From assembly GCA_900316955.1 (NCBI GenBank), contig ONEX01000005.1, positions 124,001 to 188,000 on the forward strand: a stretch of 64,000 bases of DNA, in the 5' to 3' direction. This document shows, piece after piece, positions 31,914 to 52,592 of this stretch (the stretch's first letter is position 1; each line of letters opens with the position of its first letter). The position numbers and the translations under genes were made by a program. The DNA is from an uncultured Bacteroidales bacterium (GTDB lineage Bacteria > Bacteroidota > Bacteroidia > Bacteroidales > UBA932). Below the pieces are notes generated by a model, which did not search any database, was not told the origin of the DNA, and worked only from the letters and a program-made list of their open reading frames with translations.

Positions 31914-32678
31914 ATGAGAATCACCTTGCTGCAGACGGCTCCGGAGTGGGGGAATCCCGCCCGAAGCCGCGAGGATGCCCGCCGGATGCTGATGGGCACC
32001 CTGAAGACGGACCTCGTCGTCCTTCCCGAAATGTTTTCCACCGGATTCGTCACGGACCCTGTCGGGGTGGCCGAGGACGGAGAAGGGGACAGCCTCCGCT
32101 GGATGCAGGACTATGCCCGCAGCAAGGGCTGCGCCGTGGCGGGCAGCGTGTCCACGCAGGTGGACGGCACGTACCGCAACCGTTTCTATTTCGTGTTCCC
32201 GGACGGCCATTACCAGTATTATGACAAGCATCACCTCTTCACTTATGCGGGCGAGCATCACCGGTACACCGCCGGCGAGGAGCGGGTGGTGGTGGAGCAC
32301 GCCGGGTTCCGGATCCTCCTCCAGGTGTGCTACGACCTCCGGTTCCCCGTCTTCGCCCGGAACCGCCTGGTGGACGGCAAGCCGGACTACGACCTGATCC
32401 TGTATGTCGCCAGCTGGCCGCAGCAGCGGATCGACGCCTGGGATTCCCTCCTGAAGGCCCGCGCCATCGAGAATGTGTGCTATGTGGCGGGTGTGAACCG
32501 GGTGGGGAAGGACCCCGGAAACCTGTATTCCGGACATACCAGTTTGTACGGCCCGCGCGGAGAATTGCTTTCAATTTGTAAGGAAGGACGCATCGACATT
32601 ATCGAATCTGAATTGAAACGCCCTGTCCTGGACCAATTCCGTCAGTCGTTCCCGGCCCTGTTGGATGCTGATTATTAA
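31914..32678 (+). CDS. Nitrilase superfamily amidohydrolase (omega-amidase/YafV-like)
   Basis: A 254-residue carbon-nitrogen hydrolase with the full Glu-Lys-Cys triad: Glu in VLPEMFSTGF (about residue 42), Lys in YYDKHHLFTY (about 105) and Cys in LQVCYDLRFP (about 140). The close match to YafV/omega-amidase suggests hydrolysis of alpha-ketoglutaramate or alpha-ketosuccinamate in methionine or glutamine transaminase salvage. It ends about 20 bases before the ilv promoter. Confidence 0.9.
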   Translation: MRITLLQTAPEWGNPARSREDARRMLMGTLKTDLVVLPEMFSTGFVTDPVGVAEDGEGDSLRWMQDYARSKGCAVAGSVSTQVDGTYRNRFYFVFPDGHYQYYDKHHLFTYAGEHHRYTAGEERVVVEHAGFRILLQVCYDLRFPVFARNRLVDGKPDYDLILYVASWPQQRIDAWDSLLKARAIENVCYVAGVNRVGKDPGNLYSGHTSLYGPRGELLSICKEGRIDIIESELKRPVLDQFRQSFPALLDADY

Positions 32679-32697
32679 GATTTTTTACGAGTTTTTC

Positions 32698-32728
32698 TTG
32701 TTTTTTAAAAACTAATTACCCATCTTTG
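32698..32728 (+). promoter_or_regulatory. Promoter of the ilv-leu operon
   Basis: TTG at 32698-32700, a 20-base spacer and CATCTTTG at 32721-32728, one base from the TAnnTTTG consensus. Transcription would start near 32735, about 20 bases before the leader-peptide ATG. Confidence 0.7.
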
Positions 32729-32753
32729 CTCTCGGTAACGATTTGAAACTCCT

Positions 32754-32804
32754 ATGAACAGCGTACTCGTCATTGCCCTTGTCCTCATTCTCCTTGTCAA
32801 ATAG
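32754..32804 (+). CDS. ilv-leu operon leader peptide (16 codons)
   Basis: The ATG at 32754 opens MNSVLVIALVLILLVK and ends with TAG at 32802-32804. Eleven of 16 codons are Val (4), Leu (5) or Ile (2), the three end products of the operon behind it. It lies after a promoter and directly before mutually exclusive hairpins, so it very likely serves as the sensing peptide of a transcription attenuator. Low charged branched-chain tRNA would stall the ribosome in the run of codons 4-15. The frame is too short for automatic gene calling. Confidence 0.85.
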   Translation: MNSVLVIALVLILLVK

Positions 32805-32806
32805 AC

Positions 32807-32879
32807 GCGGACTGGAAAGGCATGACGGTATAAAGATAACATCAACCCCTTCCAGTCCGCACTGGAAGGGGTGTTTTTT
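32807..32879 (+). promoter_or_regulatory. Attenuator: alternative antiterminator and terminator of the ilv-leu operon
   Basis: Segment A at 32807-32820 (GCGGACTGGAAAGG) can pair with segment B at 32846-32860 (CCCCTTCCAGTCCGC). Segment B instead pairs with C at 32861-32871 (ACTGGAAGGGG) in a perfect 11-base-pair stem with a CCGC loop, followed by TTTTTT at 32874-32879. Segment A starts 2 bases after the leader stop, so a ribosome that finishes the leader covers A and lets the B:C terminator form. A ribosome stalled in the Val/Leu/Ile codons leaves A free to block it. The structure is seen in the sequence; the mechanism is inferred from trp/ilv attenuators. Confidence 0.88.
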
Positions 32880-32889
32880 ATAGTAGTGT

Positions 32890-34722
32890 ATGAAACATCC
32901 TTTCAGAAGCAGCGTCACCTTCGAGGGACGTAGGATGGCAGGCGCCCGGGCTCTCTGGGCGGCGGCGGGTATGAAACCGGAACAGGTGGGCAAGCCTGTG
33001 ATTGCGGTCGTGAATTCCTTCACGCAGTTCGTACCCGGACACACGCACCTGCACGAGGCCGGCCAGCTGGTCAAGGCCGAGATCGAGCGCCTCGGCTGCT
33101 ACGCGGCCGAATTCGACACCATCGCCGTGGACGACGGCATCGCCATGGGCCACGACGGCATGCTGTATTCCCTTCCTTCCCGCGAAGTCATCGCAGACAG
33201 CGTCGAGTACATGGTCAACGCCCACAAGGCCGATGCGATGGTCTGCATCAGCAACTGCGACAAGATCACGCCCGGCATGCTCATGGCCGCCATGCGGCTG
33301 AACATCCCGGCGGTCTTCGTCTCCGGCGGCCCGATGGAGGCCGGCGTGCTCGGCGACCGGAAACTGGACCTGATCGACGCGATGGTCCAGTCGGCGGACA
33401 CCTCCCTGTCCGACGCCGAGGTCGCGAAGATCGAGGCGGCCTCCTGCCCGGGCTGCGGCTGCTGCTCCGGCATGTTCACGGCCAATTCGATGAACTGCCT
33501 GACCGAGGCCATCGGCCTCGCCCTTCCAGGCAACGGGTCGGTGCTCGCCACCCACAAGAACCGGAAGGAACTCTTCCGCAAGGCGGCCGCCCTCGTCGTG
33601 GAGAATGCCTGGAAGTACTATCGGGACGGTGACGAACGCGTCCTGCCCCGCAGCATCGCGACCCGCGCGGCGTTCCTGAACGCCATGGCGCTGGACATCG
33701 CGATGGGCGGATCCACGAACACGGTCCTGCATCTGCTCGCCGTGGCCCAGGAGGCCGGCGTGGACTTCACGATGGCCGACATCGACGCACTCTCCCGGAA
33801 GGTCCCCTGCATCTGCAAGGTGGCCCCCAATACCGCGAAATACCATGTCCAGGATGTGAACCGCGCCGGCGGCGTCATCTCCATCCTCCGCGAACTGGCC
33901 GTGGCCGGTCTCATCGACACCACCCTTTACCGGGTGGATGGATCCTCCCTGTCGGAGACGATGGACCGCTATGCCATCCTGTCGGAGCAGGTGACGGACG
34001 AGGCCCTTCAGCTGTACCGCAGCGCCCCTGCCGGACGGTTCTCGACCCAGCTTGGCTCCCAAGAGACCTATTACAAGGAACTGGACACCGACCGGGAGAA
34101 CGGTTGCATCCGGTCCGTCGCCCACGCCTACACGAAGGACGGCGGACTGGCGGTGCTCCGGGGGAACATCGCGGCCGACGGCTGCGTCGTGAAGACGGCC
34201 GGCGTGGACGCTTCCATCTGGAAGTTCACCGGCCCGGCGAAGGTCTTCGACTCCCAGGAAGCGGCCTGTGACGGCATCCTGAGCGGGAAAGTGAAGAGCG
34301 GCGACGTCGTCGTGATCACCTACGAAGGCCCCCGCGGCGGTCCCGGCATGCAGGAGATGCTGTACCCGACCTCCTACCTGAAGTCGGTCCATCTGGGCAA
34401 GGAATGCGCCCTGCTGACCGACGGCCGTTTCAGCGGCGGCACCTCCGGCCTGTCCATCGGCCACATCTCGCCCGAGGCGGCGGCCGGCGGCGCCATCGGC
34501 CTGGTCCGGGACGGCGACCTCATCGAAATCGACATCCCCGCCCGTTCCATCCGCGTCCTTCTCCCCGAGGACGAGCTCGAGCGCCGGCGGCAGGAGGAAC
34601 TCGCCCGCGGCGACAAGGCTTTCACGCCGCCGTTCCGCGTGCGCGAGGTCTCCAAGAGTCTGAAAGTGTACGCCCGGATGGTCAGCTCCGCCGACAAGGG
34701 CGCCGTGCGGGTCATTGATTGA
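32890..34722 (+). CDS. ilvD: Dihydroxy-acid dehydratase
   Basis: A 610-residue iron-sulfur dehydratase of the normal IlvD length. The cluster cysteines are in [10 protein letters not shown] and [17 protein letters not shown], and the active-site serine region is [10 protein letters not shown] near the C-terminus. It dehydrates dihydroxy-isovalerate and dihydroxy-methylvalerate to the 2-keto acids for Val, Leu and Ile. It is the first structural gene of the operon, 10 bases after the attenuator U-run. Confidence 0.95.
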
Positions 34723-34742: not shown

Positions 34743-36446
34743 ATGATTACAGGTTCGGATGCATTGTGGCAGTCCCTCATCGAAGAGGGCGTGGATACCG
34801 TCTTCGGGTATCCCGGCGGGCAGATTATGCCCGTGTACGACAGCCTGTGCGCTTATAAGGACCGTGTCCGCCATATCCTGGTGCGTCACGAGCAGGGAGC
34901 CATCCACGCGGCGCAGGGATTTGCCCGCGTGAAGGGCGATCCCGGCGTGGTGATCGTCACCTCCGGTCCCGGCGCGACCAACGTCATTACCGGCGTCCAT
35001 GACGCGATGACGGACTCCACCCCCGTGGTGGTCATCACCGGGCAGGTTTCCTCCGCCGCCCTGGGCACGGACGCCTTCCAGGAGGCCGATGTCATCGGCC
35101 TGACCGGCCCTATCAGCAAGTGGAACTACCAGATCCGCTCGGCGGACGAGGTGGCGTGGGCCGTGGCCCGGGCTTTCTACATCGCCCGGAGCGGCCGTCC
35201 CGGCCCTGTGGTCCTGGATTTCACCAAGGACGCGCAGGTGGGCCTGACGGACTTCAAATACGAGAAATGCAATTTCATCCGGAGCTACGTTCCCGACCCG
35301 AAGATCTCGGAAGTGGCCCTGAACAAGGCGGTCGCCCTCCTGAACGAGGCGGAGCGCCCCTTCGTCGTGTACGGCCAGGGCGTGGTCCTGGGCCATGCGG
35401 AGGAGGAGCTGAAGGCCTTCCTCGAGAAGGGGGACATCCCGGCGGGATCCACCCTCCTGGGCCTCAGCGCCTTGCCTTCGGATTTCCCGCTCTACCGCGG
35501 CATGATCGGCATGCACGGCAACGTGGCTCCGAATATCCTGACGAACACCTGTGACGTGCTGGTGGCCGTCGGCATGCGGTTCGACGACCGCGTGACCGGC
35601 ACGGTCTCCACCTACGCGCGTCAGGCGAAGGTCATCCACATCGACATCGACACCTCCGAGATCGGGAAGATCATTCCCGTCGAGGTGGGTCTCCGCGGCG
35701 ATGCCAAGAAGGTCCTCAAGGTCCTGACGGAGCGGATGAAAGCGCGGAAGCACCCCGCTTGGAACGCGAGTGTCGAGCGTTGCGATGCCGTGGAGAAGGA
35801 AAAGGTCATCGACCCGGAAGTGCACCCCGGCTCCGGCATGCTCCGGATGGGCGAGGTGGTGGACCGCGTGGTCCGCGCTTCCGACGAGAAGGCCGTCGTC
35901 GTGACGGACGTGGGCCAGAACCAGATGATGGGCGCCCGCTATTCCCGCTTCAAGCGCTCCCGGAGCTTCATTTCCTCCGGCGGCCTCGGCACGATGGGCT
36001 TCGGCCTGCCCGCCGCCATCGGCGCCAAGGTGGCCGAGCCGGGACGCCCCGTGTGCTGCTTCGTCGGCGACGGCGGCATCCAGATGACGATGCAGGAGTT
36101 CGGGACCATCATGCAGGAGCAGGTGGGCGTGAAGATCGTCCTGCTGAACAACAACTGGCTGGGCAACGTCCGCCAGTGGCAGGAGCTCTTCTTCGGCTGC
36201 CGCTACTCGGAGACCCGGATGCTGAACCCGGACTACGCGATGATCGCCCGCGCCTACGGCATCCCCTGCGTCACCGTGGAGAAGCGGGAGGAGCTGGATG
36301 CGGCCCTCGAGGCGATGTTCGCCGACGACAAGCCCTTCCTCCTGGACGTCCACGTCCTGGAAGAGGGGATGGTAATGCCCATGGTGCCGCCCGGAAAGGG
36401 CATCCACCAGATCATGATTACGGAAAACGAATGGTACAATGGATAG
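34743..36446 (+). CDS. ilvB: Acetolactate synthase, large (catalytic) subunit
   Basis: A 567-residue ThDP enzyme with the glutamate in VRHEQGAIHAAQGFAR (about residue 48), the central FAD/ThDP block and the ThDP-Mg motif VGDGGIQMTMQEFGT ending in NNNWLGNVRQWQ. It makes acetolactate and acetohydroxybutyrate, the first committed step of the branched-chain pathway. It overlaps the small-subunit gene by 8 bases, which should help fix the subunit ratio. Confidence 0.95.
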   Translation: MITGSDALWQSLIEEGVDTVFGYPGGQIMPVYDSLCAYKDRVRHILVRHEQGAIHAAQGFARVKGDPGVVIVTSGPGATNVITGVHDAMTDSTPVVVITGQVSSAALGTDAFQEADVIGLTGPISKWNYQIRSADEVAWAVARAFYIARSGRPGPVVLDFTKDAQVGLTDFKYEKCNFIRSYVPDPKISEVALNKAVALLNEAERPFVVYGQGVVLGHAEEELKAFLEKGDIPAGSTLLGLSALPSDFPLYRGMIGMHGNVAPNILTNTCDVLVAVGMRFDDRVTGTVSTYARQAKVIHIDIDTSEIGKIIPVEVGLRGDAKKVLKVLTERMKARKHPAWNASVERCDAVEKEKVIDPEVHPGSGMLRMGEVVDRVVRASDEKAVVVTDVGQNQMMGARYSRFKRSRSFISSGGLGTMGFGLPAAIGAKVAEPGRPVCCFVGDGGIQMTMQEFGTIMQEQVGVKIVLLNNNWLGNVRQWQELFFGCRYSETRMLNPDYAMIARAYGIPCVTVEKREELDAALEAMFADDKPFLLDVHVLEEGMVMPMVPPGKGIHQIMITENEWYNG

Positions 36447-36999
36447 CGAAGTGAGAGAATACACGGTGACCATCTACACCGAGAACCAGATCGGCCTCCT
36501 GGCGCAGATCACGAACGTGTTCACGCGCCACGGCCTGAGCATCTGGAGCCTGTCCGCGGGCGCCACCTCCATGGAGGGCGTCCACAACATCACCATCGTG
36601 ACCTCCGGCCTGGAGAAGAAGGTCCGCGAGAGCGTCCAGCAGATCGAGAAGCGCGTGGACGTGATCAAGGTCTTCTTCTACACGTCTGACAAGATCGTGT
36701 ACCGCGAGCTGTGCCTGTACAAGGTGCCCACCCCGGCCCTCCTCGAGTACGGCGACATCGAAACCCTGCTGAACCGCTATCACGCGCGCATCGTGGAGAT
36801 GAACAAGGTGTTCACGGTCATCCAGAAAACCGGCCTGTCCGACGAGACGGCCGCCCTGCATGACGACCTCAAGCCCATCGGCGTGCTGCAGTTCGTGCGT
36901 TCGGGCCGCATCGCGGTCTCCCGCGCCGAGCAAGAGCCCGTCTTCAAGTTCCTGAAGAAACGGGAAAGGGAAAGAAATCAACAATTAAACAACAAATAG
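36439..36999 (+). CDS. ilvN: Acetolactate synthase, small (regulatory) subunit
   Basis: A 186-residue regulatory subunit. The N-terminal ACT domain (YTVTIYTENQIGLLAQITNV) is typical of IlvN/IlvH and binds valine for feedback inhibition. The C-terminal domain activates the large subunit. The start overlaps the ilvB stop region by 8 bases and ilvC begins 2 bases after its stop. Confidence 0.92.
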   Translation: MDSEVREYTVTIYTENQIGLLAQITNVFTRHGLSIWSLSAGATSMEGVHNITIVTSGLEKKVRESVQQIEKRVDVIKVFFYTSDKIVYRELCLYKVPTPALLEYGDIETLLNRYHARIVEMNKVFTVIQKTGLSDETAALHDDLKPIGVLQFVRSGRIAVSRAEQEPVFKFLKKRERERNQQLNNK

Positions 37000-37001
37000 A
37001 C

Positions 37002-38051
37002 ATGGCAAAGATCAATTTTGGCGGTGTCGACGAGAACGTCGTGACCCGCGAGGAATTCACCCTGGAACATGCGCGCGAAGTCCTGAAGGACGAAACCATC
37101 GCCGTCATCGGCTACGGCGTGCAGGGCCCCGGACAGTCCCTGAACCTGAAAGACAACGGTTTCAAGGTCATCGTCGGCCAGCGCAAGGGCAAGACCTATG
37201 ACAAGGCCGTCGCCGACGGCTGGGTCCCGGGCGTAGACCTCTTCGAGATCGAGGAGGCTTGCGAGAAGGGCACCATCATCCAGTTCCTGGTTTCCGACGC
37301 GGCCCAGATCGCGATCTGGCCCACGGTGAAGAAGCATCTCACCCCGGGGAAGGCCCTCTATTTCTCCCACGGCTTCGGCATCACCTACAAGGAGCGCACG
37401 GGCATCGTCCCGCCCGCGGACGTGGACGTGATCATGGTCGCCCCGAAGGGCTCCGGCACCTCCCTGCGCCGGCTCTTCCTGCAGGGCCGCGGCGTGAACT
37501 CCTCCTACGCCGTGTATCAGGACGCCACCGGCCGCGCCCTCGAGCGCACGCTCGCGCTGGGTATCGGCGTGGGTTCCGGCTACCTGTTCGAGACCGACTT
37601 CAAGCGTGAGGTCTATTCCGACCTCACCGGTGAGCGCGGCACCCTGATGGGCGCGATCCAGGGCATCCTGTCCGCCCAGTACGAGGTGCTCCGCGAGCAC
37701 GGCCACAGCCCGTCCGAGGCCTTCAACGAGACCGTCGAGGAGCTCACCCAGTCCCTGATGCCGCTCTTCGCCGAGAAGGGCATGGACTGGATGTACGCGA
37801 ACTGCTCCACCACCGCCCAGCGCGGCGCGCTGGACTGGATGGGCCCGTTCCACGACGCCACCAAGCCCGTGTTCGAGAAGCTGTACCAGCGGGTGGCCAG
37901 CGGCGAGGAGGCCCAGGTCTCCATCGACGCGAACTCCAAGCCGGACTATCGCGAGGGCCTGGAGAAGGAACTGAAGGCGCTCCGCGAGAGCGAACTCTGG
38001 CGCACCGGCGCCGCCGTCCGTAAACTGCGTCCCGAGGAGATCGACCGATGA
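37002..38051 (+). CDS. ilvC: Ketol-acid reductoisomerase
   Basis: A 349-residue class I enzyme. The Rossmann motif [18 protein letters not shown] lies near residue 34 and the cofactor loop GQRKGKTYD near 55, where Arg and Lys favour NADPH. The C-terminal knotted helical domain carries the magnesium glutamates ([14 protein letters not shown] and the later [12 protein letters not shown]). It isomerises and reduces acetolactate. Its stop overlaps leuA by 4 bases. Confidence 0.95.
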
Positions 38052-39541
38052 GCGACCGGGTGTACATATTCGACACCACGCTCCGCGACGGGGAACAGGT
38101 CCCGGGATGCCAGTTGAACACTGTGGAGAAGATCCAGGTCGCCAAGGCCCTGGAGCTCCTCGGCGTGGACGTCATCGAGGCCGGTTTCCCGATCTCCAGC
38201 CCGGGTGATTTCAACTCGGTGGTGGAGATCTCCAAGGCGGTGACCTGGCCCACGGTCTGCGCGCTGTCGCGGGCCGTGGAGAAGGACATCGACATGGCCG
38301 CGGAGGCGCTCAAGTACGCCAAGCGGGGCCGGATCCACACCGGAATCGGCACGTCCGACTCGCACATCCGGTACAAGTTCAACTCCACCCGGGAGGAAGT
38401 GCTGGAGCGGGCCGTCCGCGCCGTCAAATACGCGAAGAAGTACGTCGAGGACGTGGAGTTCTACGCGGAGGACGCCGGCCGCACCGACAACGAGTTCCTC
38501 GCCCGCGTAGTGGAGGCCGTGATCAAGGCGGGCGCGACCGTCGTGAACATCCCCGACACGACGGGCTACTGCCTGCCGGAAGAGTTCGGCGCCAAGATCA
38601 AGTACCTGATGGAACACGTGGACGGGGTCCATAAGGCCATCATCTCCACGCACTGCCACAACGACCTGGGCATGGCGACGGCCAACACGATGGCCGGCCT
38701 GCTGAACGGCGCCCGCCAGTGCGAGGTCACGATCAACGGCATCGGCGAAAGGGCGGGGAACACCGCCCTGGAGGAGATCGCGATGATCCTGAAGGCCCAT
38801 CACGGGATTCCGCTGGAGACGAACATCAACACCAAGCGCATCTATCCCACGAGCCGGCTCGTGTCGTCCCTGATGAACATGCCGGTGCAGCCGAACAAGG
38901 CCATCGTGGGCAAGAACGCCTTCGCCCATTCGTCCGGCATCCACCAGGACGGCGTCTTGAAGAACGCCGAGACCTACGAGATCATCGACCCGAAGGACGT
39001 GGGCATCGACACGAATTCCATCGTCCTGACGGCCCGCAGCGGCCGGGCGGCGCTCAAGTACCGCCTGGAAGTGAACGGCGTGAAATTGGACGAGAACAAG
39101 CTGGACGAGGTGTACGAGCAGTTCCTCCGCCTTGCCGACAGCAAGAAGGAGATCCACGACGATGACATCCTGATGCTCGCCGGGGCCGACCGGGCCTCCG
39201 CGCGCCGCATCAAGGTGGACTGGCTCCAGGCGACGAGCGGCATCGGCGTGAAGCCGGTGGCCTCCGTGGGACTGGACATCGCCGGGGAGAAGTTCGAGGC
39301 GGCCGCGACCGGCAACGGCCCGGTGGACGCCGCCATCAACGCGCTGCGGCAGATCGTGAAGCGTCATCTCACCATCAACGAATACACCATCCAGGGCGTC
39401 TCCAAGGGGTCCGACGACTGCTGCAAGGTCCATATGCAGGTGGAGAACGAGGGACGGGTGTACTACGGCTTCGGCGCTTCGACCGACATTGTGACGGCCT
39501 CCATCGAGGCTTATGTGGATTGTATCAACAAGATTGTATGA
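38048..39541 (+). CDS. leuA: 2-isopropylmalate synthase
   Basis: A 497-residue TIM-barrel enzyme. [16 protein letters not shown] at residues 9-24 and [16 protein letters not shown] carry the metal and substrate ligands; an allosteric C-terminal domain ([20 protein letters not shown]) is present, so leucine feedback is likely. It condenses acetyl-CoA with 2-ketoisovalerate. This is the first of two homologous synthases in the operon. The stop overlaps leuC by 4 bases. Confidence 0.93.
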
Positions 39542-40932
39542 ACACCCTCTTTGACAAGATCTGGGACGCGCATGTCGTCCAGCACGTGGAAGGCGGGCCC
39601 GACCAGCTGTACATCGACCGGCTCTACTGCCATGAGGTGACGAGCCCGCAGGCTTTCGACGGTCTGCGCGAGCGGGGCATCCGCTGCCTGCGTCCGGAAA
39701 AGATTATCTGCATGCCGGACCACAACACCCCGACCGAGGGCCAGGAGCGGCCCATCGAGGATCCGGTATCCAAGAAACAGGTGGATGCCCTCGCGGCCAA
39801 CGCCGCCGAGTTCGGGCTCACGCACTACGGGATGATGGACCCGAACAACGGCATCATCCACGTCGTGGGGCCGGAGAAGGGCCTTTCCCTGCCCGGCATG
39901 ACCATCGTCTGCGGTGACTCGCACACGTCCACGCATGGCGCCGTCGGTGCCGTGGCGTTCGGCATCGGCACCTCCGAGGTGGAGATGGTCCTGGCGTCGC
40001 AGTGCATCCTCCAGCAGAAGCCCAAGTCGATGCGCATCCGCATCGAGGGCGAACTCGGGAAGGGCGTGACCGCCAAGGACATGGCGCTTTTCCTGATGAG
40101 CAAGCTCACCACCAGCGGCGCGACGGGCTACTTCGTGGAGTACGCCGGTTCCGCGGTCCGGGCCCTGTCCATGGAAGGCCGCCTCACCCTCTGCAACCTG
40201 TCCATCGAGATGGGCGCCCGCGGCGGTTTCATCGCTCCGGACGAGACCACCTTCGCCTACCTCAAAGGCCGCGACTATGCGCCGAAGGGGGAGGACTGGG
40301 ACAAGGCCGTCGCTGTCTGGAAGGAGCTCCGCAGTGACGCGGACGCCGTCTTCGACCGGGAAGTCCTCTTCGACGCGGCCGAGATCACCCCGATGGTCAC
40401 CTACGGCACCAACCCCGGCATGGGCATCGCCATCACGGGCTACTTGCCCACGCTGGACGATATCCCTGTCGAGGCCCATGCCTCCTTCTGCAAATCCCTG
40501 AAATACATGGGCTTCCGTCCGGGTGACATGCTCCTCGGCAAGCCCGTGGACTACGTCTTCCTGGGCGCCTGCACGAACGGACGCATCGAGGATTTCCGGG
40601 CGTTCGCGTCCATCGCCGCCGGCCGCAAGAAGGCGCCGGGCGTCGTGGCGTGGCTCGTCCCCGGCTCCTGGAAGGTCCGCCGCCAGATCGAGGAAGAAGG
40701 CCTGGACAAGATCCTGGAAGCCGCCGGCTTCGAGATCCGCCAGCCCGGCTGTTCCGCCTGCCTGGCGATGAACCCGGACAAGGTTCCCGCCGGCAAGTAC
40801 TGTGTCTCCACGAGCAACCGGAATTTCGAGGGTCGCCAGGGCCCCGGTTCCCGGACGCTCCTCGCCAGCCCGCTCACGGCGGCCGCCGCGGCCGTCACCG
40901 GCTACATCACCGACCCCCGCGTACTGCTATGA
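39538..40932 (+). CDS. leuC: 3-isopropylmalate dehydratase, large subunit
   Basis: A 464-residue aconitase-family subunit. [4Fe-4S] ligands are visible in GACTNGR and CSACLAMN, and the substrate segment [14 protein letters not shown] is present. It isomerises 2- to 3-isopropylmalate together with LeuD. The ATG at 39538 overlaps the leuA stop; an upstream in-frame start would extend it into leuA without adding conserved sequence. It may also act on citramalate made by the second synthase. Confidence 0.95.
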
Positions 40933-41519
40933 AACAGAAATTCGACATCATAGAAAGCACCTGCGTCCCGCTCCCGCTCGAGAACGTGGACACGGACCAG
41001 ATCATTCCCGCCCGCTTCCTGAAGGCCACCACGCGGGACGAACGCTTCTTCGGCGACAACCTGTTCCGCGACTGGCGTTACCAGCCGGACGGCACGCCGG
41101 ATCCGGACTTCGTCCTGAACGATCCGAAGTACGGCGGCGAGATCCTCGTCGCGGGCCGGAACTTCGGCTCCGGCTCCAGCCGCGAGCACGCGGCCTGGGC
41201 CATCGCCGGCTATGGGTTCAAAGTGGTGATTTCCAGTTTCTTCGCGGATATCCACAAGAACAACGAGCTGAACAATTTTGTCCTGCCGGTGGTCGTGACC
41301 CCGGATTTCCTGGAGGAACTCTTCGCCTCCATCGAGGCGGATCCTGCGACGAAGGTCCGGGTGGACGTCCCGAACCAGACCGTGACGAACCTCGCCACGG
41401 GCCGGAGCCAGTCCTTCGAACTGAACGCGTACAAGAAGTACTGCCTGATGAACGCGCTGGACGACATCGACTACCTGCTCCTGCAGAAGGACAAGATCGA
41501 AGCCTACGAGAACCGATGA
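40929..41519 (+). CDS. leuD: 3-isopropylmalate dehydratase, small subunit
   Basis: A 196-residue swivelling-domain subunit. It has [14 protein letters not shown] near the N-terminus and the substrate-binding loop [17 protein letters not shown]. It pairs with LeuC. Its start overlaps the leuC stop by 4 bases and its stop overlaps the next synthase by 4 bases. Confidence 0.95.
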
Positions 41520-43042
41520 TCGAAATCCTGGACACAACCCTCCGTGACGGCGAGCAGACGGCCGGCGTCTCGTTCAACCCGGACGAGAAACTGGCCATCG
41601 CGCGCCTGCTCCTGGAGGAAATGAAGGTCAACCGGATCGAGGTGGCCTCGGCGCGGGTGTCCCGCGGCGAGCAGGAGGCTTTCGCCAAGATCTGCGCGTG
41701 GGCTTCCACCTGCGGCAAGCTCGGCGCCGTCGAGGCGCTCGGCTTCGTGGACGGCGGCCTGTCCGTGGACTGGATCCGTTCGGCCGGGGGACAGGTGATG
41801 AACCTCCTCACGAAGGGCTCCCTCCGCCATGTGACCGGCCAGCTCCGGAAAACGCCGGAGGAGCACCTGGACGACATCCTCCGGGACATCCGCATCGCCG
41901 TCTCCAAGGGCCTGGAGGTCAACGTGTACCTCGAGGACTGGTCCAACGGGATGACGGACTCGCCGGAGTATGTGTTCTTCCTGGTGGACGCCCTGAAGGA
42001 CGCCCCCGTGAAGCGGATCATGCTGCCGGACACCCTGGGCATCCTGGATCCGAAGCGCACGTGGGAGTACTGCCGGACGATGGTGGAACGCTATCCTTCC
42101 CTCCATTTCGATTTCCACCCCCACAACGACTACGACCTCGCCGCGGCGAACGCCTTCGAGGCGGTCCTCGCCGGCGTGAAGGGCCTGCACACCACCGTGA
42201 ACGGGCTGGGGGAGCGGACCGGCAACCTGCCCGTGTCCAGCGCCATCGGCATCCTCAATGACCACCTCAAGGTGGAGAACACCCTGGACGAGAGCCGTCT
42301 GATGCATGTGTGCCGCTATGTGGAGACGATTTCCGGCGTCCGGATCCCTTCGAACAAGCCCCTCGTGGGCGAGTTCGTCTTCACGCAGACGAGCGGGGTC
42401 CATGCCGATGGCGACCGCAAGGGCGGGCTGTACCAGAACGCCCTCCTGCCGGAGCGCTTCGGCCGCCACCGCCACTACGCCCTCGGGAAGACCAGCGGCA
42501 AGGCGAACATCGTCAAGAACCTGGAATCCCTGGGCATCAACCTCACGCCCGAGCAGATGAAGCAGGTCACGGCCCGCGTCGTCGAGCTCGGCGACAAGAA
42601 GGAAAGCCTGACCCCGGAGGACCTTCCGTTCATCGTGGCGGATGTCCTGAAAGGGGATGTCTCCACGACGGCCCCGGACCGGATCCACATCATCAATTAC
42701 AGCCTGCAGCTCGCCCGCGGCATGCGCCCCATCGCGAACATCAGGATCGACATCGACGGAACCGAGTACGAGGAGGCGGCTGCCGGCGACGGCCAGTACG
42801 ACGCCTTCATGAAGGCGCTCTGGATCATCTACGACCGGCTGGGCCGGCGGCATCCCCGCCTGACGGACTACGTCGTGAAGATCCCGCCCGGGGGCAAGAC
42901 CGACGCCCTCGTGGAGACGACCATCTCCTGGGACTGGCAGGGCAAGGGCTTCAAGACCCGGGGCGTGGACTCCGACCAGGCCGAAGCGGCCATCAAGGCC
43001 ACGGTCAAGATGTTGAACTTAATCGAAAACAACCTGATATGA
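41516..43042 (+). CDS. Second isopropylmalate/citramalate synthase family protein
   Basis: A 508-residue paralogue of leuA. The metal motif [16 protein letters not shown] lies at residues 4-19, and [16 protein letters not shown] carries the histidines. A C-terminal regulatory domain is present. The N-terminal region diverges strongly from the first LeuA, with [14 protein letters not shown] where LeuA has the substrate-pocket segment. A role as (R)-citramalate synthase, making 2-ketobutyrate for isoleucine from pyruvate and acetyl-CoA, is plausible. Its position between leuD and leuB, whose enzymes could process both acids, fits this. The exact substrate is not provable by eye. Confidence 0.85.
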
Positions 43043-44088
43043 GACTCAAGATTGCAAAACTCCCCGGCGACGGCATCGGCCCGGAAGTCGTGGACCAGGC
43101 CGTCAAGGTCGTGGATGCCGTGTGCGCCCGTTTCGGGCATGAGGTTTCTTACACCTACGGGTATGTAGGCGCCTGCGCCATCGACCGTTTCGGTGACGCC
43201 TATCCGGCCGAGACCCATGCCTTGTGCATGGAAAGCGACGCCGTCCTCTTCGGCGCGGTGGGCGACCCCAAGTACGACAACGACCCCACGGCGAAAGTGC
43301 GTCCGGAGCAGGGCCTGCTGGCCATCCGGAAGCAGCTGGGCCTGTATGCGAACCTCCGTCCGGTGGAGACCTTCAAGTCCCTCGTGGACAAGTCCCCGCT
43401 GAAGACCGAGCTCGTGGACGGGGCCGATTTCCTGTGCATCCGGGAACTCACCGGCGGCATGTACTTCGGCGAGAAGGGCCGGAAGGACAATGGAAACACG
43501 GCCTATGACACCAACATCTACAGCCGCGCCGAGGTGGAGCGCATCCTGAAGCTCGCCTTCGAGTACGCCGGACGCCGCCGCAAGCACCTCACCGTGGTGG
43601 ACAAGGCCAACGTGCTGGAATCCTCCCGCCTGTGGCGCCAGATCGCGCAGGAGATGGAGCCGGCCTATCCGGACATCCAGGTGGACTACATGTTCGTGGA
43701 CAACGCCGCCATGCAGCTCATCCGCTGGCCGAAGTTCTTCGACGTCCTGGTGACCGAGAACACCTTCGGCGACATCCTCACGGACGAAGCCAGCTGCATC
43801 AGCGGGTCGATGGGCCTGCTGGCGTCGGCCTCGGTAGGGGAGCACACCTCCCTGTTCGAGCCCATCCACGGCTCCTACCCGCAGGCGGCCGGCAAGAACA
43901 TCGCGAACCCCGTCGCGGCCATCCTGTCGGCGGCGATGATGTTCGAGTACGCCTTCGGCCTGATGGACGAGGGCAAGGCCATCCGCGAGGCCGTCGCCGC
44001 TTCCCTGGAGGCCGGCGTGACGACCGAGGACCTCGGCGGCAGCTATTCCACCTCCGCGGTGGGCGATTGGATCGCATCGAAAATATAG
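43039..44088 (+). CDS. leuB: 3-isopropylmalate dehydrogenase
   Basis: A 349-residue beta-decarboxylating dehydrogenase. It starts with [15 protein letters not shown] and has [10 protein letters not shown], the substrate loop [13 protein letters not shown] and the NAD-binding [18 protein letters not shown]. It converts 3-isopropylmalate to 2-ketoisocaproate and may also process the citramalate-derived acid. It overlaps the second synthase by 4 bases; ilvE follows after 6 bases. Confidence 0.95.
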
Positions 44089-47338: not shown

Positions 47339-49191
47339 AACGCCTGATCTTCCTCCCCATGCTCTGCTGGGCGGCCTTGCTCGTCGCTCAGGAGAAGTAT
47401 AACGCCATCATCCTGGAGGATGAGGAATCCTTCGTGATGTCCGCGCCCACGTCCGGTACCTACAACGTCCGGAGAACGGTCCGCGTGTTCAACGACGCGG
47501 GCTTGGACGAGGCCGTGTTCCAGGAGTATACGGACCAGTTCCGCAGCCTTTCATCCTTCAAGGGAACGCTGGAACGTGAGAACGGCAAGCCCCTGAAGCT
47601 CAAGAAGGACGACCTGGTCATGGTTTCCGTCGCTTCCGGCCTCGCCGAGGACGGCTTTGTCCATGGCTACCAACCTTCATCGACATATCCTTTCACCGTT
47701 ACCTACGAATACACGATCACCTACCGGAAAGGCGTCGCTTCCTTCCCGACCTTCTTTCCGGTATCCAGCGAGAAAGTCAAGGTGGAGAAGGCCTCCTACA
47801 CCTTCCAGGTTCCTTCCGGCACGAAAATCAATTGCGTCACGTCCAAGGTGGGCGATGTGCGGAAAGAAACCGGCAAGGCCGATACCTACCGCTGGGAAGT
47901 TCCTGTCTTCGAGGGCTATACCGCCGAGATGCTCATGCCCTCCTGGCGGGAGATCGTGCCCTATGTCTTCGCCTGCCCGGCGGATTTCACCTATGCCGGC
48001 ATGAACGGCAGCCAGGCCACCTGGGAACATGTGGGCGCCTGGGTCCATGGACTCCGCGAAGGGACGGACGACCTCCCGGAATCCTTCCGGGCCGAACTGA
48101 AGGAGATGACAGCCAAGGCCGGTTCCGATTTGGAGAAGATCCGGATTCTGTATGACTACCTCCGCGAGCATACGCGCTACGTGAGCATCCAGCTGGGCAT
48201 CGGCGGTTACAAGCCTTTCCCGGCCAGTCAGGTCCATAAGACCGGTTTCGGCGACTGCAAGGGCCTGTCCAACTACATGCAATCCATGCTGGACGCCGTT
48301 GGCATCCCGTCCTACTACACGCTCGTGAACACGAACCGGGCCGATTTCCTGCCCGGCTATTCCGGCGTCGGCCAGATGAACCACGTAATGCTGTGCGTCC
48401 CGCTTCCCGAGAAGAAAGACACCCTCTGGCTGGAATGCACGAACCCGGCCGTGCCGCTGGGCTACCGGCATGAGGACGTGGCCGGCCACGAAGTGGTCGT
48501 CACGCAGGCCGGCGGCGGAATCCCGGTCCGGGTACCCGCCTATGCCGACACCCTGAGCCGGGACGTCTGCGAACTGGATCTGGAACTCGCTCCTGACGGG
48601 GCCGCGAAGGCGACCGTGAAGCGGAGCCTCTACCTGGACGAGACGGAAAGCTGGCTCTCCATCCGTGACTGGAAGCCCGACACTCGGCGGAGCCGCCTTA
48701 CGTCCGGGCTCACCGTCCAGCCGCAGGAAGTGACGCTCACGGGCGTGCAGGACAACTTCCGGGACTATGACGGTCCGGATTTCTGCCCATGGATGGAAGT
48801 GGATTACACCTTCGACACCCGCCAATACGCGACCACCGGGAAGGACCGCCTGTTCGTGCCGGTCAATCCCCATCCCAAGGGCGCCTCGCTCCAGCGGGGA
48901 AAGCGGCAGAACGACCTTGTATGCAAGCAGGGCGGCATCGAACGCGACCGTATCTGGATCCACCTGCCCGCCGGCTACAAGCCGGAAAGCCTTCCCAATC
49001 CGGTCTCATTGGATACGGAATGGGGTACCTTCACCTCATCCTGTGAACTGAAGGACGGTACCGTCGTGGTTTTCCAGGAATTCATTACCAAGCGCTTCCG
49101 GGAGCCGGCGGAACGCTTTGACGACTTCCGCACTTTCGTGCGGGCCGTCAACAAAGCGTATCAGGCGAATCTGGTGCTGGTCAAAGAATAA
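47335..49191 (+). CDS. DUF3857/transglutaminase-like protein, catalytically complete
   Basis: A 618-residue secreted protein (signal peptide about residues 1-18, ending LLVAQE). It has the DUF3857 domain followed by a transglutaminase-like core: the cysteine in TGFGDCKGLSNYM near residue 306, His in GQMNHVMLCV and an acidic position in WLECTNPAV, where relatives usually have Asp. Family members are thought to be periplasmic proteases or amidases, but the substrate is unknown. It is translationally coupled to its inactive-looking paralogue and its stop abuts the rnpB terminator from the other strand. Confidence 0.88.
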   Translation: MKRLIFLPMLCWAALLVAQEKYNAIILEDEESFVMSAPTSGTYNVRRTVRVFNDAGLDEAVFQEYTDQFRSLSSFKGTLERENGKPLKLKKDDLVMVSVASGLAEDGFVHGYQPSSTYPFTVTYEYTITYRKGVASFPTFFPVSSEKVKVEKASYTFQVPSGTKINCVTSKVGDVRKETGKADTYRWEVPVFEGYTAEMLMPSWREIVPYVFACPADFTYAGMNGSQATWEHVGAWVHGLREGTDDLPESFRAELKEMTAKAGSDLEKIRILYDYLREHTRYVSIQLGIGGYKPFPASQVHKTGFGDCKGLSNYMQSMLDAVGIPSYYTLVNTNRADFLPGYSGVGQMNHVMLCVPLPEKKDTLWLECTNPAVPLGYRHEDVAGHEVVVTQAGGGIPVRVPAYADTLSRDVCELDLELAPDGAAKATVKRSLYLDETESWLSIRDWKPDTRRSRLTSGLTVQPQEVTLTGVQDNFRDYDGPDFCPWMEVDYTFDTRQYATTGKDRLFVPVNPHPKGASLQRGKRQNDLVCKQGGIERDRIWIHLPAGYKPESLPNPVSLDTEWGTFTSSCELKDGTVVVFQEFITKRFREPAERFDDFRTFVRAVNKAYQANLVLVKE

Positions 49192-49196
49192 AAAAA

Positions 49197-49507
49197 GGCG
49201 GGGCCGTAAGCCGCTTTCTGTTTTTGAATCTGCCATTTATCTTCGCAACCTACCCCCCGGCATCGGACGGGCCGCCCTCATCTGCCGGTATATTTGGTCT
49301 TGCAGGCCTGCCGCCGTACCCGCCGTACGTCGCCGCACGGCGTCGTGGGCTCTTACCCCGCGTTTTCACCCTTACCCTTGCGGGCGGTTTTTTTCTGTTA
49401 CGGACGGAAAAGATTACTCCCTTCTGTGCTTTCCACAGCCAGGCGCCCTGCCCTGTGCGGACTTTCCTCACCGGTTTCCCGGCGCGGCAGATCGTCCCGC
49501 CTTTTTC
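49197..49507 (-). ncRNA. rnpB: RNase P RNA
   Basis: On the minus strand the conserved RNase P blocks appear in order: GAGGAAAGTCCGCACAG (49453-49469), ACAGAA (near 49422), GGTAAGGGTGAAAACG then GGTAAGAGCCCACG, AGACCAAATA, GGGTAGGTTGC and finally CGGCTTACGGCCCC. The ends GGCGGG and CCCCGCC can pair as helix P1, followed by a run of T. It forms the catalytic RNA that trims tRNA 5' ends. The length of about 310 bases is on the short side. It fills the gap between the DUF3857 gene and the cyclase gene. Boundaries are approximate. Confidence 0.93.
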
Positions 49508-49555: not shown

Positions 49556-50308
49556 ATGAGAAAGTTTTTGCTCATAGCAGGCCTCGTGATCGCCGCGGTT
49601 TCCTGCGGGACGACGAAGGTGCAGGAGTACAAGGTGAAGGTCGTGCGGGAATACCCGCATGACGTGACTTCGTATACGCAGGGGCTGTTTTTCTACCGCG
49701 ATTCGCTGTACGAGTCCACGGGCCAGTGGGGAGAGAGCACCTTCCGCACGGTGGACCTGGAGACGGGGAAGGCCCTGTCCCGGATGGACTTCTCACGGAA
49801 GTATTTCATCGAGGGATCCATCTTCTTCGAGGGCACCCTGTATCTCCTCACCTGGACGAACAACCTCGTCTTCCTGTACGATGCCGATACGCGTAAATAC
49901 CGGGAGACGGTCGCGTATCCCCGCGAAGGCTGGGGCCTGACCACGGACGGGAAGCAGCTCATCGCCAGCGACGGCAGCTCCTTCCTGTATTTCATGGACA
50001 AGGACCTGAACGTGGAGCGGCGCCTGCGGGTGACCATGGACGGGAAGTCGGTGCGCTACCTGAACGAACTCGAATACATCGACGGGAAGGTATGGGCCAA
50101 TGTCTATACCACCGACACGATCGTCATCATCGACCCGGCCGACGGGAAGGTGGAGGCGACCGTGGACTGCCGGGGCCTGCTCCCGTACCGGGAACGGACC
50201 GCCGAGACGGATGTCCTGAACGGCATCGCCGTGGACAGGAAGGGCCGGATCTTCCTGACCGGGAAGTATTGGCCCAAGATGTTTGAAATAGAACTGGTTA
50301 AGAAATAA
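49556..50308 (+). CDS. Glutaminyl-peptide cyclotransferase, lipoprotein
   Basis: A 250-residue protein with a lipoprotein signal (lipobox VIAAVSC, Cys17), so it should be anchored in the envelope. The mature part is the plant/bacterial-type glutamine cyclotransferase beta-propeller, shown by YPHDVTSYTQGLFFYRDSLYEST at its start (residues 30 on). It converts N-terminal Gln of peptides or proteins to pyroglutamate, which fits this phylum's frequent N-terminal Gln after signal-peptide cleavage. It is followed directly by the TPP riboswitch. Confidence 0.9.
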   Translation: MRKFLLIAGLVIAAVSCGTTKVQEYKVKVVREYPHDVTSYTQGLFFYRDSLYESTGQWGESTFRTVDLETGKALSRMDFSRKYFIEGSIFFEGTLYLLTWTNNLVFLYDADTRKYRETVAYPREGWGLTTDGKQLIASDGSSFLYFMDKDLNVERRLRVTMDGKSVRYLNELEYIDGKVWANVYTTDTIVIIDPADGKVEATVDCRGLLPYRERTAETDVLNGIAVDRKGRIFLTGKYWPKMFEIELVKK

Positions 50309-50310
50309 AA

Positions 50311-50387
50311 ACTCGGGGTATCGGGCCAGGTGGCCCGGTTGAGAGCATACCCGTGAACCTGATGCGGTTCATACCGCCGGAGGAAAG
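50311..50387 (+). promoter_or_regulatory. TPP (thiamine pyrophosphate) riboswitch
   Basis: All THI-element blocks are present: ACTCGGGGTAT, a variable GC-rich hairpin GGGCC...GGCCC, GTTGAGAG, ATACCCGTGAACCTGATG, GGTTCATACC and CCGGAGGAAAG. GGGTAT pairs with ATACCC, the expected covariation. It ends 3 bases before the receptor ATG, so ligand binding would directly occlude the start region; no terminator hairpin follows, suggesting translational control. Confidence 0.93.
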
Positions 50388-50390
50388 TAT

Positions 50391-52592
50391 ATGAAAAAAA
50401 CCGTATTGTCGGCGGCCTTCGCCGCCTTGTGCCTCTGCGCAGGTGCGCAGGAGGTCGAAAAGCAGGAAAGACTGGACTCTGTCGTCGTTTCCGCTTCCCG
50501 TGCCGGGACACACACGCCTGTAACACACACCGATGTGGGCAAGGACGCCCTTCGCGCCGCCAGCCCCATGCAATCCCTGCCGATGGCGCTGAACCTGCTG
50601 CCGTCCGTGGTCACCTACAATGAAGGCGGCACCGGACTGGGCAACTCGGCGATGACCATCCGCGGCTCCAAGGGGTCACAGATCAACGTGACCCTGAACG
50701 GCATCACCCTGAACGACGCGGAGTCCCAGGAAGTGTTCTGGGTCAACATCCCCGCCCTGACGTCCCTGCTGTCCAGCGTCCAGGTCCAGCGCGGCCTGGG
50801 TACGTCGGCCAACGGCGCGGGCGCCTTCGGGGCCAGCGTCAATATGAACACGGCCTTCGTCACGCCGGATCCGGCCTTCCGCTGGGAGGTGTCCGCCGGC
50901 TCGTACGGGACGTACCTGACCACGGTGTCGGCGATGTCCGGCCTGCTGCCCTCCGGCCTGTATTTCAGCCTGGCGTATTCGGCCGGGAAGACGGACGGCT
51001 ACATCCGGAACGCCGGGGTGGGCTCCGCCTCGCTCTTCGGCGTGGTCGGCTGGCTCAAGGGACGCAACTCGCTGCGGTTCACCTATCTGATGGGCGACCA
51101 GCGGAGCGGCATCACCTGGGACGGCATCTCCCCGGAGATGTATGCCATCGACCGCACTTACAACGGCGCCGGCGAGTATGTCGATGACAGCGGGAAAACC
51201 TGCTACTACCCGAACCAGACCGACAACTACGCCCAGCACCATCTCCAGCTCAATTACACCCGCCGCCTGACGGACCGCCTGACCTGGGCCAATACGGCCG
51301 ATTACACGCGGGGCGACGGCTACGACGAGTACTACAAGACGGGCCGGAAGTTCGCCGAGTTCGGCTATCCTTTCTCCGCGTGGCAGGGCCAGAAGAAGAG
51401 CGACATGATCTACCGGAAGCGGATGGACAACGACCTGTACGTGCTGCAGTCGGAGCTTCGGTATGTGGGGGAGAGCCTGCGCGTGAACGGGGGAGTGAAC
51501 CTCTCGCGGTATATCGGCGGGCATTGGGGCGAGATGCTTTGGGCGCGCCTCCTGGGCCCGAATTACGATTACGCGTTGATGAACCGGGACGAGACCTGGT
51601 ACCGGAACACAGGTACCAAGCAGGAAGTCAGTGCGTTCCTCCGCTCTGAATATCAGCCGCTTCCGTGGCTGACGGCCTATGCGGACCTCCAGTACCGGCA
51701 CATCGGCTATTCGCTCGTGGGCCGGGACGACAAGGCGAGTTCCGTTCCGCTCGACTATCACGAGAAATGGGATTTCTTCAATCCCCGGGCGGGCGTGACG
51801 GCCCTGTTCGGCGCCCATAAGCTGTACGCTTCCGCCGCCATCGGCCACCGCGAGCCCGGCAAGAGCGACATCAAGGAAAACATCAAGGGGGAGATGATCC
51901 CCATCCGGCCCGAGTCCATGCTGGACATCGAGGCGGGCTACCAGTTCGCCGGGGAGCGTTTCACCGCATCGGCGAACGTCTATCTGATGGAATACAGGGA
52001 CATGCTCTTGGAGACGGGCAAGCTGAGCACGTCCGGCTATGCGATCAAGGAGAACGTGGGCCGGGGCTGGCGCCGGGGTGTCGAGCTCGCGGCCGCATGG
52101 GTCCCCGCCTCCTGGGTCCGGGCCGATGCGAACCTGACGCTCTCCACCAACAAGCTGCGCTCCTTCAGCGCCTATCTCGAGAACTGGGTGGACGGGGGAT
52201 ACAAGCAGGAGACCTATGAGAATACGACCATGCTCCTCTCTCCGTCCGTCGTCGGTATGGGCCGAATCGCCCTCACGCCTTTCAGCGGCTGGTGGAAACC
52301 GCTTTCATTGACCTTGAGCGGCAAGTACGTCGGGAAACAGTATTGGGACAATACGCAGAACGAGGGCCGCAGCATTCCGGCCTGGTTCGTCACCGATCTC
52401 TCCCTGACCCATTCCTTCCCGCTTCCGACGGGTTCCCTGGGCATTTCAGTGTTCGTCAACAACCTGTTGAACAAGGCCTATTATGCCAATGCATGGGTCT
52501 ACAGGGCTTGGGATGGCGGCGAGTATGTGGAGGCCGGTCTGTACCCACAGGCACTCCGGAATCTTATGGTAAAATTTACTTATAGTTTTTAA
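50391..52592 (+). CDS. TonB-dependent outer-membrane receptor, probably for thiamine
   Basis: A 733-residue outer-membrane beta-barrel. Signal peptide residues 1-20 (ending CAGAQ), a TonB-box-like RLDSVVVSASR, a plug domain with SAMTIRGSKGSQINVTLNG, and a long barrel ending in aromatic MVKFTYSF. The TPP riboswitch in front makes thiamine or a thiamine precursor the likely ligand. Comparative studies of THI elements describe such receptors in the Bacteroides group. The inner-membrane transporter (PnuT-type) and kinase usually found beside it are absent here. Confidence 0.92.
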   Translation: MKKTVLSAAFAALCLCAGAQEVEKQERLDSVVVSASRAGTHTPVTHTDVGKDALRAASPMQSLPMALNLLPSVVTYNEGGTGLGNSAMTIRGSKGSQINVTLNGITLNDAESQEVFWVNIPALTSLLSSVQVQRGLGTSANGAGAFGASVNMNTAFVTPDPAFRWEVSAGSYGTYLTTVSAMSGLLPSGLYFSLAYSAGKTDGYIRNAGVGSASLFGVVGWLKGRNSLRFTYLMGDQRSGITWDGISPEMYAIDRTYNGAGEYVDDSGKTCYYPNQTDNYAQHHLQLNYTRRLTDRLTWANTADYTRGDGYDEYYKTGRKFAEFGYPFSAWQGQKKSDMIYRKRMDNDLYVLQSELRYVGESLRVNGGVNLSRYIGGHWGEMLWARLLGPNYDYALMNRDETWYRNTGTKQEVSAFLRSEYQPLPWLTAYADLQYRHIGYSLVGRDDKASSVPLDYHEKWDFFNPRAGVTALFGAHKLYASAAIGHREPGKSDIKENIKGEMIPIRPESMLDIEAGYQFAGERFTASANVYLMEYRDMLLETGKLSTSGYAIKENVGRGWRRGVELAAAWVPASWVRADANLTLSTNKLRSFSAYLENWVDGGYKQETYENTTMLLSPSVVGMGRIALTPFSGWWKPLSLTLSGKYVGKQYWDNTQNEGRSIPAWFVTDLSLTHSFPLPTGSLGISVFVNNLLNKAYYANAWVYRAWDGGEYVEAGLYPQALRNLMVKFTYSF

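Follow-up and report, generated by a model that had tools for sequence, protein, structure and literature searches.

The locus described here raises the question of what controls a run of nine ilv and leu genes whose first member, ilvD, is preceded by a short reading frame rich in valine, leucine and isoleucine. It lies in a stretch of 64,000 nucleotides from an uncultured Bacteroidales bacterium of the UBA932 lineage (assembly GCA_900316955.1, contig ONEX01000005.1, positions 124,001 to 188,000 of the forward strand), which we call the window and in whose own numbering all positions below are given. The original prediction, made from the sequence alone, had placed a leader-peptide attenuator between a promoter and ilvD. 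Comparison with relatives and folding of the RNA now make it very probable that this element is a ribosome-mediated transcription attenuator of the ilv-leu operon.

All parts of the element lie on the plus strand. The leader open reading frame (ORF), of 16 codons and a stop, occupies 32754..32804, with its ATG at 32754 and a TAG at 32802-32804; base-by-base reading of the predicted peptide, MNSVLVIALVLILLVK, gave 11 valine, leucine or isoleucine (V/L/I) codons out of 16, and the same frame was supported by the ORF scan and by relatives. Segment A (GCGGACTGGAAAGG, 32807-32820) starts two bases 3' of the leader stop, and is followed by B (CCCCTTCCAGTCCGC, 32846..32860), C (ACTGGAAGGGG, 32861..32871) and a run of six T (T6, 32874..32879), found by base reading and by the terminator scan; the ATG of ilvD is at 32890. 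The first 11 bases of B can pair with C in an 11-pair stem with a 4-base loop, of which C is the 3' arm and which the T run closes as a predicted intrinsic terminator. Alternatively, B can pair with A, engaging 13 of the 14 bases of A, as an antiterminator; the two helices are mutually exclusive, B being common to both. The original prediction had given the leader, its codon count, the two-base distance to A and the positions of all these parts correctly, and overlooked a fourth segment inside the leader: codons 4-8 (segment 1, 32763..32777) can pair with 32819-32831. Segment 2 accordingly spans 32807..32831, comprising A, the partner of B, and 32819-32831, the partner of segment 1; with B as segment 3 and C as segment 4, the predicted layout is the classical 1:2, 2:3 and 3:4 arrangement.

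These pairings are stronger than those of shuffled sequences. The A:B fold of 32800-32885 had a z value of -2.83 (3 of 200 shuffles were equally good), pairing of A against B alone had z = -5.0 (p = 0.005, the floor of 200 shuffles), and the 1:2 fold reached -24.2 kcal/mol (z = -2.79; 2 of 200 shuffles equally good). A scan of both strands of the window for short residue-dense ORFs with a T run found two matches, the leader and a Ser-rich frame, so that the leader is the sole match of the V/L/I type. The terminator scan of 32600-33000 found one site versus 0.6 in shuffles; thus, the terminator taken alone is not significant there.

The comparison with relatives used two samples. The first consisted of the best 80 named loci by ilvD similarity among the matches listed (58 labelled Bacteroidota or a taxon below it, and 22 others). 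For the second, we searched 157 genomes from the order of the window for ilvD, and 63 of them, including the window's own, matched at E<=1e-150; upstream DNA was obtained from 60 of the 62 other genomes, and two of these regions were identical to named loci, one of Heminiphilus faecis and one labelled 'Bacteroidales bacterium', by which the order is taken to be Bacteroidales. With the window, there were 139 distinct upstream regions, 117 of them from Bacteroidota. Leaders were counted in regions of at least 300 bases (113 Bacteroidota and 19 others, leaving aside four and three shorter regions, respectively), a leader being an ORF with at least 8 V/L/I in 10 residues that ends 55-240 bases before ilvD. 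Such leaders were found in 65 of the 113 Bacteroidota loci, compared to 0.85 in shuffles and two on the reverse strand, and in none of the 19 loci from elsewhere. A finder of leader plus terminator identified both in 43 of 58 order genomes (31 of 42 families), in 29 of 58 named Bacteroidota loci and in 0 of 22 others; it required a T run, and the T run in the 74 rows that it returned is not independent evidence. Two rows were dropped later, L088 (a spurious ORF picked) and L094 (a wrong hairpin picked, and out of the A:B and B:C tests). Eight loci outside these rows (L004, L008, L033, L038, L047, L077, L091 and L120) have a leader score of at least 7 and no terminator by the finder.

Over the last 20 leader residues of the 74 rows, V made up 22%, L 17.5% and I 16% (together about 55%), with F at 1.6%, A at 3.0%, M at 3.3% and W at 0.3%; the leader composition is not merely hydrophobic. 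All three branched-chain residues occur in 69 of the 74 leaders.

The pairing partners have changed together. Hairpin energies lie below -8 kcal/mol in all but one of the 74 rows, and A:B is stronger than expected from 200 shuffles of the A region (p<=0.05) in 53 of the 74. In a 73-row alignment, double changes were seen at 10 of 10 B:C pairs with 93% of cells paired, versus 43-61% in slid registers, and the covariation score was 0.363 compared to 0.186 when shuffled. The alignment consensus is GTGAGAAAGGT at A, GCCTTTCTCA at B and TGAGAAAGGC at C, and, by eye, other B cores (CCATTC, CCGATT, CCGTTC and, in the window, CCCCTTCC) face matching A cores, some via G-U pairs. A column-wise count of A:B pairs was rejected, the aligner MAFFT having set GAAAGG in two registers one base apart, and pairing energies of each locus with its own and with permuted partners were used instead. 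Over 72 loci, own partners were better with z = -11.9 for A:B and z = -19.4 for B:C (each 0 of 10000 permutations); A:B remained at z = -8.7 in the 34 loci with divergent B, and own B:C was better than the median foreign pairing in 72 of 72. For 1:2, the result was z = -9.4 (0 of 10000) over the 56 loci whose best A starts fewer than 20 bases ahead of where the leader stop ends, the 16 others being left out. It should be noted that the loci are mutually related and that the permutation z values overstate their independence. In keeping with the original prediction, covariation of both helices and conservation of V/L/I codons upstream of ilvD were thus found; relatives lacking both the leader codons and the alternative pairing did not occur, the relatives showing both.

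Folds of the region from leader to A had a median z of -1.4 over the 72 loci, with 23 below -2 and none above +2. A TATGTA-like motif 3' of A is, by eye, the part that early leader codons pair with in many of the printed folds; this 1:2 pairing would explain recurrent non-branched codons, such as His, in the early leader. Relative to the end of the leader stop, the best A starts 1-9 bases earlier in 43 of 72 rows; counted from the base that follows the stop, its start falls between -9 and +5 in 49 of 72.

The same element stands before other genes, where the leader codons can be compared with what the operon makes. At E<=0.01, a covariance model built on the element matched in 84 of 294 order genomes. 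We fetched 40 of these matches, mostly away from known ilvD sites, and identified the downstream genes by tblastn with nine window genes and one gltB fragment: 21 stood before leuA, 11 before ilvD (two of them identical, in one genome) and 6 before gltB, while two were not identified. Names were checked at one locus each. At L219, the model of the glutamate synthase large subunit (1490 positions) is matched over its first 409, the gene being cut by the stretch fetched, and the gene at L214 is 2-isopropylmalate synthase. The leuA leaders are rich in Leu and Ile, and valine makes up 1.6% of their densest 15 residues (21 loci), versus 28% in 73 ilvD leaders. Twenty of the leuA leaders have at least 7 V/L/I; valine averages 0.25 per leader in these, compared to 4.19 in ilvD leaders, and none contains two or more. 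Such nearly valine-free leaders fit leu genes that serve leucine and isoleucine, not valine; the isoleucine role of the leu genes is drawn from the relative of citramalate synthase that follows leuD, in the window only. The leaders thereby carry an in-built prediction of the amino acids that the leu genes serve. As read from these predicted peptides, leader codons vary with what the operon makes, a match that would not be expected if the peptide had a structural role.

The six loci with gltB downstream (L216, L219, L223, L230, L231 and L241) show the same terminator/antiterminator design and a short ORF that stops close to A; these gltB leaders did not reveal a clear control amino acid.

What the sequences show is a short ORF, alternative helices that co-vary and a codon content maintained across species; they suggest the following scheme, in which promoter activity, translation, stalling, termination and the starvation response are inferred. 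RNA polymerase would start near 32735, and the leader would be translated during its synthesis. When Val-, Leu- and Ile-tRNAs are charged, the ribosome would reach the stop and cover most of A, B:C would form, and transcription would end at about 32879. When one of the three amino acids is short, the ribosome would stall on V/L/I codons, breaking the 1:2 pairing and leaving A free to capture B before C is made, and the polymerase would read on into ilvD-leuB. Segment 1 probably pauses the polymerase, or holds segment 2 when the ribosome is absent, as in classical attenuators.

We modelled this scheme with a ribosome that covers the A-site codon and 11 bases beyond; a reach of up to 12 bases past the stop has been estimated (PMC4833913). 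For the time before C is made, the model predicted over 72 loci a median of 11.7 A:B pairs when the ribosome stalls at V/L/I codons, compared to 2.1 when it stands at the stop. No locus gains pairs from stall to stop, and in 71 of 72 the loss amounts to two pairs or more. Against shuffled A regions, the observed pairing was above the control mean in 63 of 72 loci. An equilibrium model of the window with C included gave a terminator probability of 0.44-0.66 at codons 2-5, of 0.01-0.11 at codons 6-14, and of 0.97 at codons 15 and 16, at the stop, at codon 1 and without a ribosome. Equilibrium folding with C serves the window and was rejected as a general test on account of the relatives (below), pre-C pairing being added. 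The traits of an attenuator are found together at this locus, namely a V/L/I leader ORF, mutually exclusive antiterminator and terminator, a terminator with a U run before the first gene, and 1:2 pairing; masking of segment 2 by a ribosome at the stop and its exposure on a stall are predicted by the model.

Several results weigh against an attenuator of this kind, or against its generality. The finder saw no leader plus terminator in 15 of 58 order genomes and in 29 of 58 named Bacteroidota loci; among the latter 29, the labels Prevotella and Prevotellaceae are frequent and three loci are cut by contig ends, and at some (e.g., L006, L044, L065 and L073) ilvD lies no more than 100 bases from the end of a long same-strand ORF, like a gene inside an operon. 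One of the 19 loci outside the Bacteroidota reached 7 of 10 V/L/I, and the covariance model at E<=0.01 has no match in the window's own genome, so that its matches are not a census. A:B did not beat its own shuffles in 21 of 74 rows, and only 56 of 72 loci pair A with their own B more strongly than in the median foreign combination; for 1:2 the figure is 47 of 56, and a control with segment 2 reversed gave z = -1.8 (374 of 10000), which leans the same way and indicates that a small part of the 1:2 effect is composition. In L116 (genome G008), a relative of the same genus, the leader is V/I-rich and A:B pairing gives no signal (p = 0.9). The reading frame passes A in several loci (e.g., L010, L019, L028 and L068), where covering of A at the stop cannot apply unchanged. 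The loss of pairs on covering A is partly trivial, and 17 of 72 loci, including the window (5.4), keep at least four expected A:B pairs with the ribosome at the stop. Equilibrium folding with C separates the stop from the V/L/I mean by more than 0.3 in only 18 of 72 loci; thus, the switch would have to be kinetic in most relatives. Finally, without a ribosome the pre-C model forms A:B in the window (13.9 pairs) and at least four pairs in 53 of 72 loci; this disagrees with the equilibrium probability of 0.97 for the terminator in the window, so that the two models differ on the state without translation.

Could the same observations arise without attenuation? The predicted peptide is very hydrophobic, and the short ORF might encode a small membrane protein that stands before an ordinary terminator hairpin, A:B being incidental. 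Yet other hydrophobic residues are rare in the leaders (F and A at the levels given above), the leuA leaders lose Val while keeping Leu and Ile, and both A:B and 1:2 co-vary, which makes a membrane protein very improbable. A terminator/antiterminator pair by itself is also used by riboswitches and T-boxes, either of which might control the terminator with the leader ORF unused. That explanation leaves the V/L/I density and its fit to the controlled gene without a cause, and in the Rfam scan of 32600-32950 all 11 matches (up to E = 5, none of them a T-box) were weak and stayed below the gathering scores. The T-box model has no match at gathering score in the window. In 20 relative loci (E<=0.5) a single match appeared, to Phe_leader, itself a family of leader peptides; it lies on the coding strand of L158, directly after the leader, and its 31.8 bits fall short of the gathering score of 55. 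We consider a riboswitch or T-box the least probable of the alternatives.

The leader might also act mainly on translation of ilvD, or via Rho, and not through intrinsic termination. In its favour, V/L/I leaders in other classes of the phylum (L168-L180) precede a hairpin that has no T run directly behind it. The B:C hairpin of the window, however, runs into T6, and stability beyond -8 kcal/mol is nearly universal in the rows examined; we give this mode of action hardly any weight, and retain the ribosome-mediated attenuator with intrinsic termination as the preferred reading.

Beyond this locus, we consider it slightly more likely than not that there is an order-wide Bacteroidales attenuator family that precedes at least ilvD, leuA and gltB, with leader codons matching the operon products (Val, Leu and Ile for ilv; Leu and Ile, but not Val, for leu, which would follow if isoleucine were also made by the leu genes via citramalate). 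If so, the co-varying segments would imply that transcription and translation are routinely and tightly coupled throughout the order, and the gltB copies would read some other translational signal. The occurrence of leader and terminator in 43 of the 58 sampled ilvD-bearing genomes (31 of 42 families) offers a direct test of ribosome-polymerase coupling in the phylum.

In enterobacteria, ilvGMEDA, ilvBN and leu have classical ribosome-mediated attenuators with four segments and an intrinsic terminator. The element described here resembles them in having a leader rich in the regulated amino acids, four segments and a terminator, directly before the first structural gene; the comparison is one of layout, and the phylum is different. 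Unlike in enterobacteria, the A core (GAAAGG, GAATGG) in most cases touches the leader stop or overlaps it, and one switch would serve ilvD-B-N-C and leuA-C-D-cimA-B together. The branched-chain amino-acid operon of Staphylococcus aureus starts with ilvD. An attenuator peptide is likewise described upstream of the branched-chain genes of that species, which belongs to another phylum; it is leucine-rich and combined with CodY in the available text (PMC5794164). The leader of Corynebacterium ilvBNC (ilvB-II motif) is also a case of ilv operon attenuation based on an upstream ORF, but heads an ilvB-first operon, a distinction that rests on the published descriptions available and not on sequence (PMC10272879, PMC11857589).

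Nearer relatives of the system are known from the same phylum. The Bacteroid-trp RNA (RF01692) is a cis-regulatory candidate of Bacteroidetes, assigned by its name to the trp operon in the part of the source seen (PMC2864571); its model has no match in the window or in the window's own genome, which sets the present element apart. The Flavobacterium psychrophilum transcriptome paper, in the passages available, reports "strong clues" for leader-peptide attenuation at amino-acid operons, with family-conserved 5' elements before pheA and hisG that have no Rfam hits (PMC9723704). These candidates are alike in phylum, in the kind of operon and in combining a leader peptide with RNA structure, and differ in belonging to another order; the attenuation section, as far as available, does not name an ilv case (PMC9723704). 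The original prediction, which knew of no well-described multi-amino-acid ilv version in the phylum, stands as to ilv in the text seen, and has to be tempered in that attenuation at amino-acid operons of the phylum was already reported (PMC9723704). The Bacteroides thetaiotaomicron map mentions small ORFs in 5' untranslated regions that are reminiscent of leader peptides, with no ilv case in the passages available (PMC7366714).

The Bacteroidales are a major group of gut bacteria. In the literature searched by title and the start of the abstract, we found no ilv or leu leader attenuator in this order and no description of RNA control of its branched-chain amino-acid synthesis; absence from print is not thereby established. 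In Rfam 15 the window element has no match at gathering score, the scan of the window returning RNase P and TPP only. The working principle is known; for the RNA family, the loci scanned gave no match in Rfam release 15.

Within the original prediction, the promoter is the least secure element. The promoter-like stretch (32698..32728, plus strand) comprises TTG at 32698-32700, a putative -33 element by consensus, 20 bases, and a -7-like box, CATCTTTG, at 32721-32728. TAnnTTTG is the -7 element of Bacteroidota promoters, according to the part of the source available (PMC9723704). Exact copies occur 55-170 bases 5' of the leader stop in 64 of 73 loci, versus 8.7 in shuffles; the window box is one mismatch away, and a sigma-70 promoter scan of the locus gave no match.

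The genes downstream, all on the plus strand, were named by NCBIfam models. ilvD (dihydroxy-acid dehydratase, 32890..34722) scored 773.6 bits with TIGR00110 (cut-off 618). Above their cut-offs were also ilvB (acetolactate synthase large subunit, 34743..36446, TIGR00118), ilvN (its small subunit, 36439..36999, TIGR00119), ilvC (ketol-acid reductoisomerase, 37002..38051, TIGR00465), leuA (2-isopropylmalate synthase, 38048..39541, TIGR00973), leuC (39538..40932, TIGR00170), leuD (40935..41519, TIGR00171) and leuB (3-isopropylmalate dehydrogenase, 43042..44088, TIGR00169). Between leuD and leuB lies a cimA-like gene (41516..43042), a relative of (R)-citramalate synthase whose best family, NF042433, gave 628 bits and did not reach the cut-off of 950. 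The start codons of leuC, leuD, the cimA-like gene and leuB were chosen in the analysis. The operon had been called complete; this is the case for the nine ilv/leu genes, and neither ilvE (aminotransferase) nor ilvA was found among the ten proteins scanned. The gene upstream of the element (31914-32678) encodes a relative of amidohydrolases, slightly under the family cut-off.

Several further observations were made at related loci. By eye, in L116 and L051, which both have a V/I-rich leader and where the usual A:B is unsupported, GGGAATCC 3' of the stop could pair with GGATTC in the terminator loop, not with a stem arm. Phylum-wide and class-wide searches provided 40 upstream regions from beyond the order, which were scanned. 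Twenty of them came from other orders of the class; a density of 7 of 10 V/L/I was reached in 7, of which four (L150, L151, L157 and L158) were convincing by eye, with V/L/I leaders and terminators before ilvD; in L157 the segments read GGCACT / AGTGCC / GTGCCTCA..TGAGGCAC. The V/L/I-rich leaders of L168-L180, many with ..LGII.., also stand 5' of ilvD and represent a distinct design, without a match in Rfam. In the 13 loci read, a GGTCAATCCC-like strand lies 6-9 bases after the stop and its complement begins 38-62 bases after the stop; in many of them GGGATT inside the leader could compete for the AATCCC strand, as judged by reading alone.

A second candidate leader-peptide attenuator was noticed in the window's own genome (contig C17 of genome G000, minus strand, match 56658-57203; L183), where a His leader candidate, MNRNDISKLHHHPVSMD, stands 5' of hisG, with a TAACTTTG box ahead of it and, by eye, a GC-rich hairpin and a T run behind. 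Within the window, the Rfam scan placed the TPP riboswitch at 50304-50402 (plus strand, 61.6 bits) and a bacterial RNase P class A RNA at 49191-49503 (minus strand, 167.7 bits).

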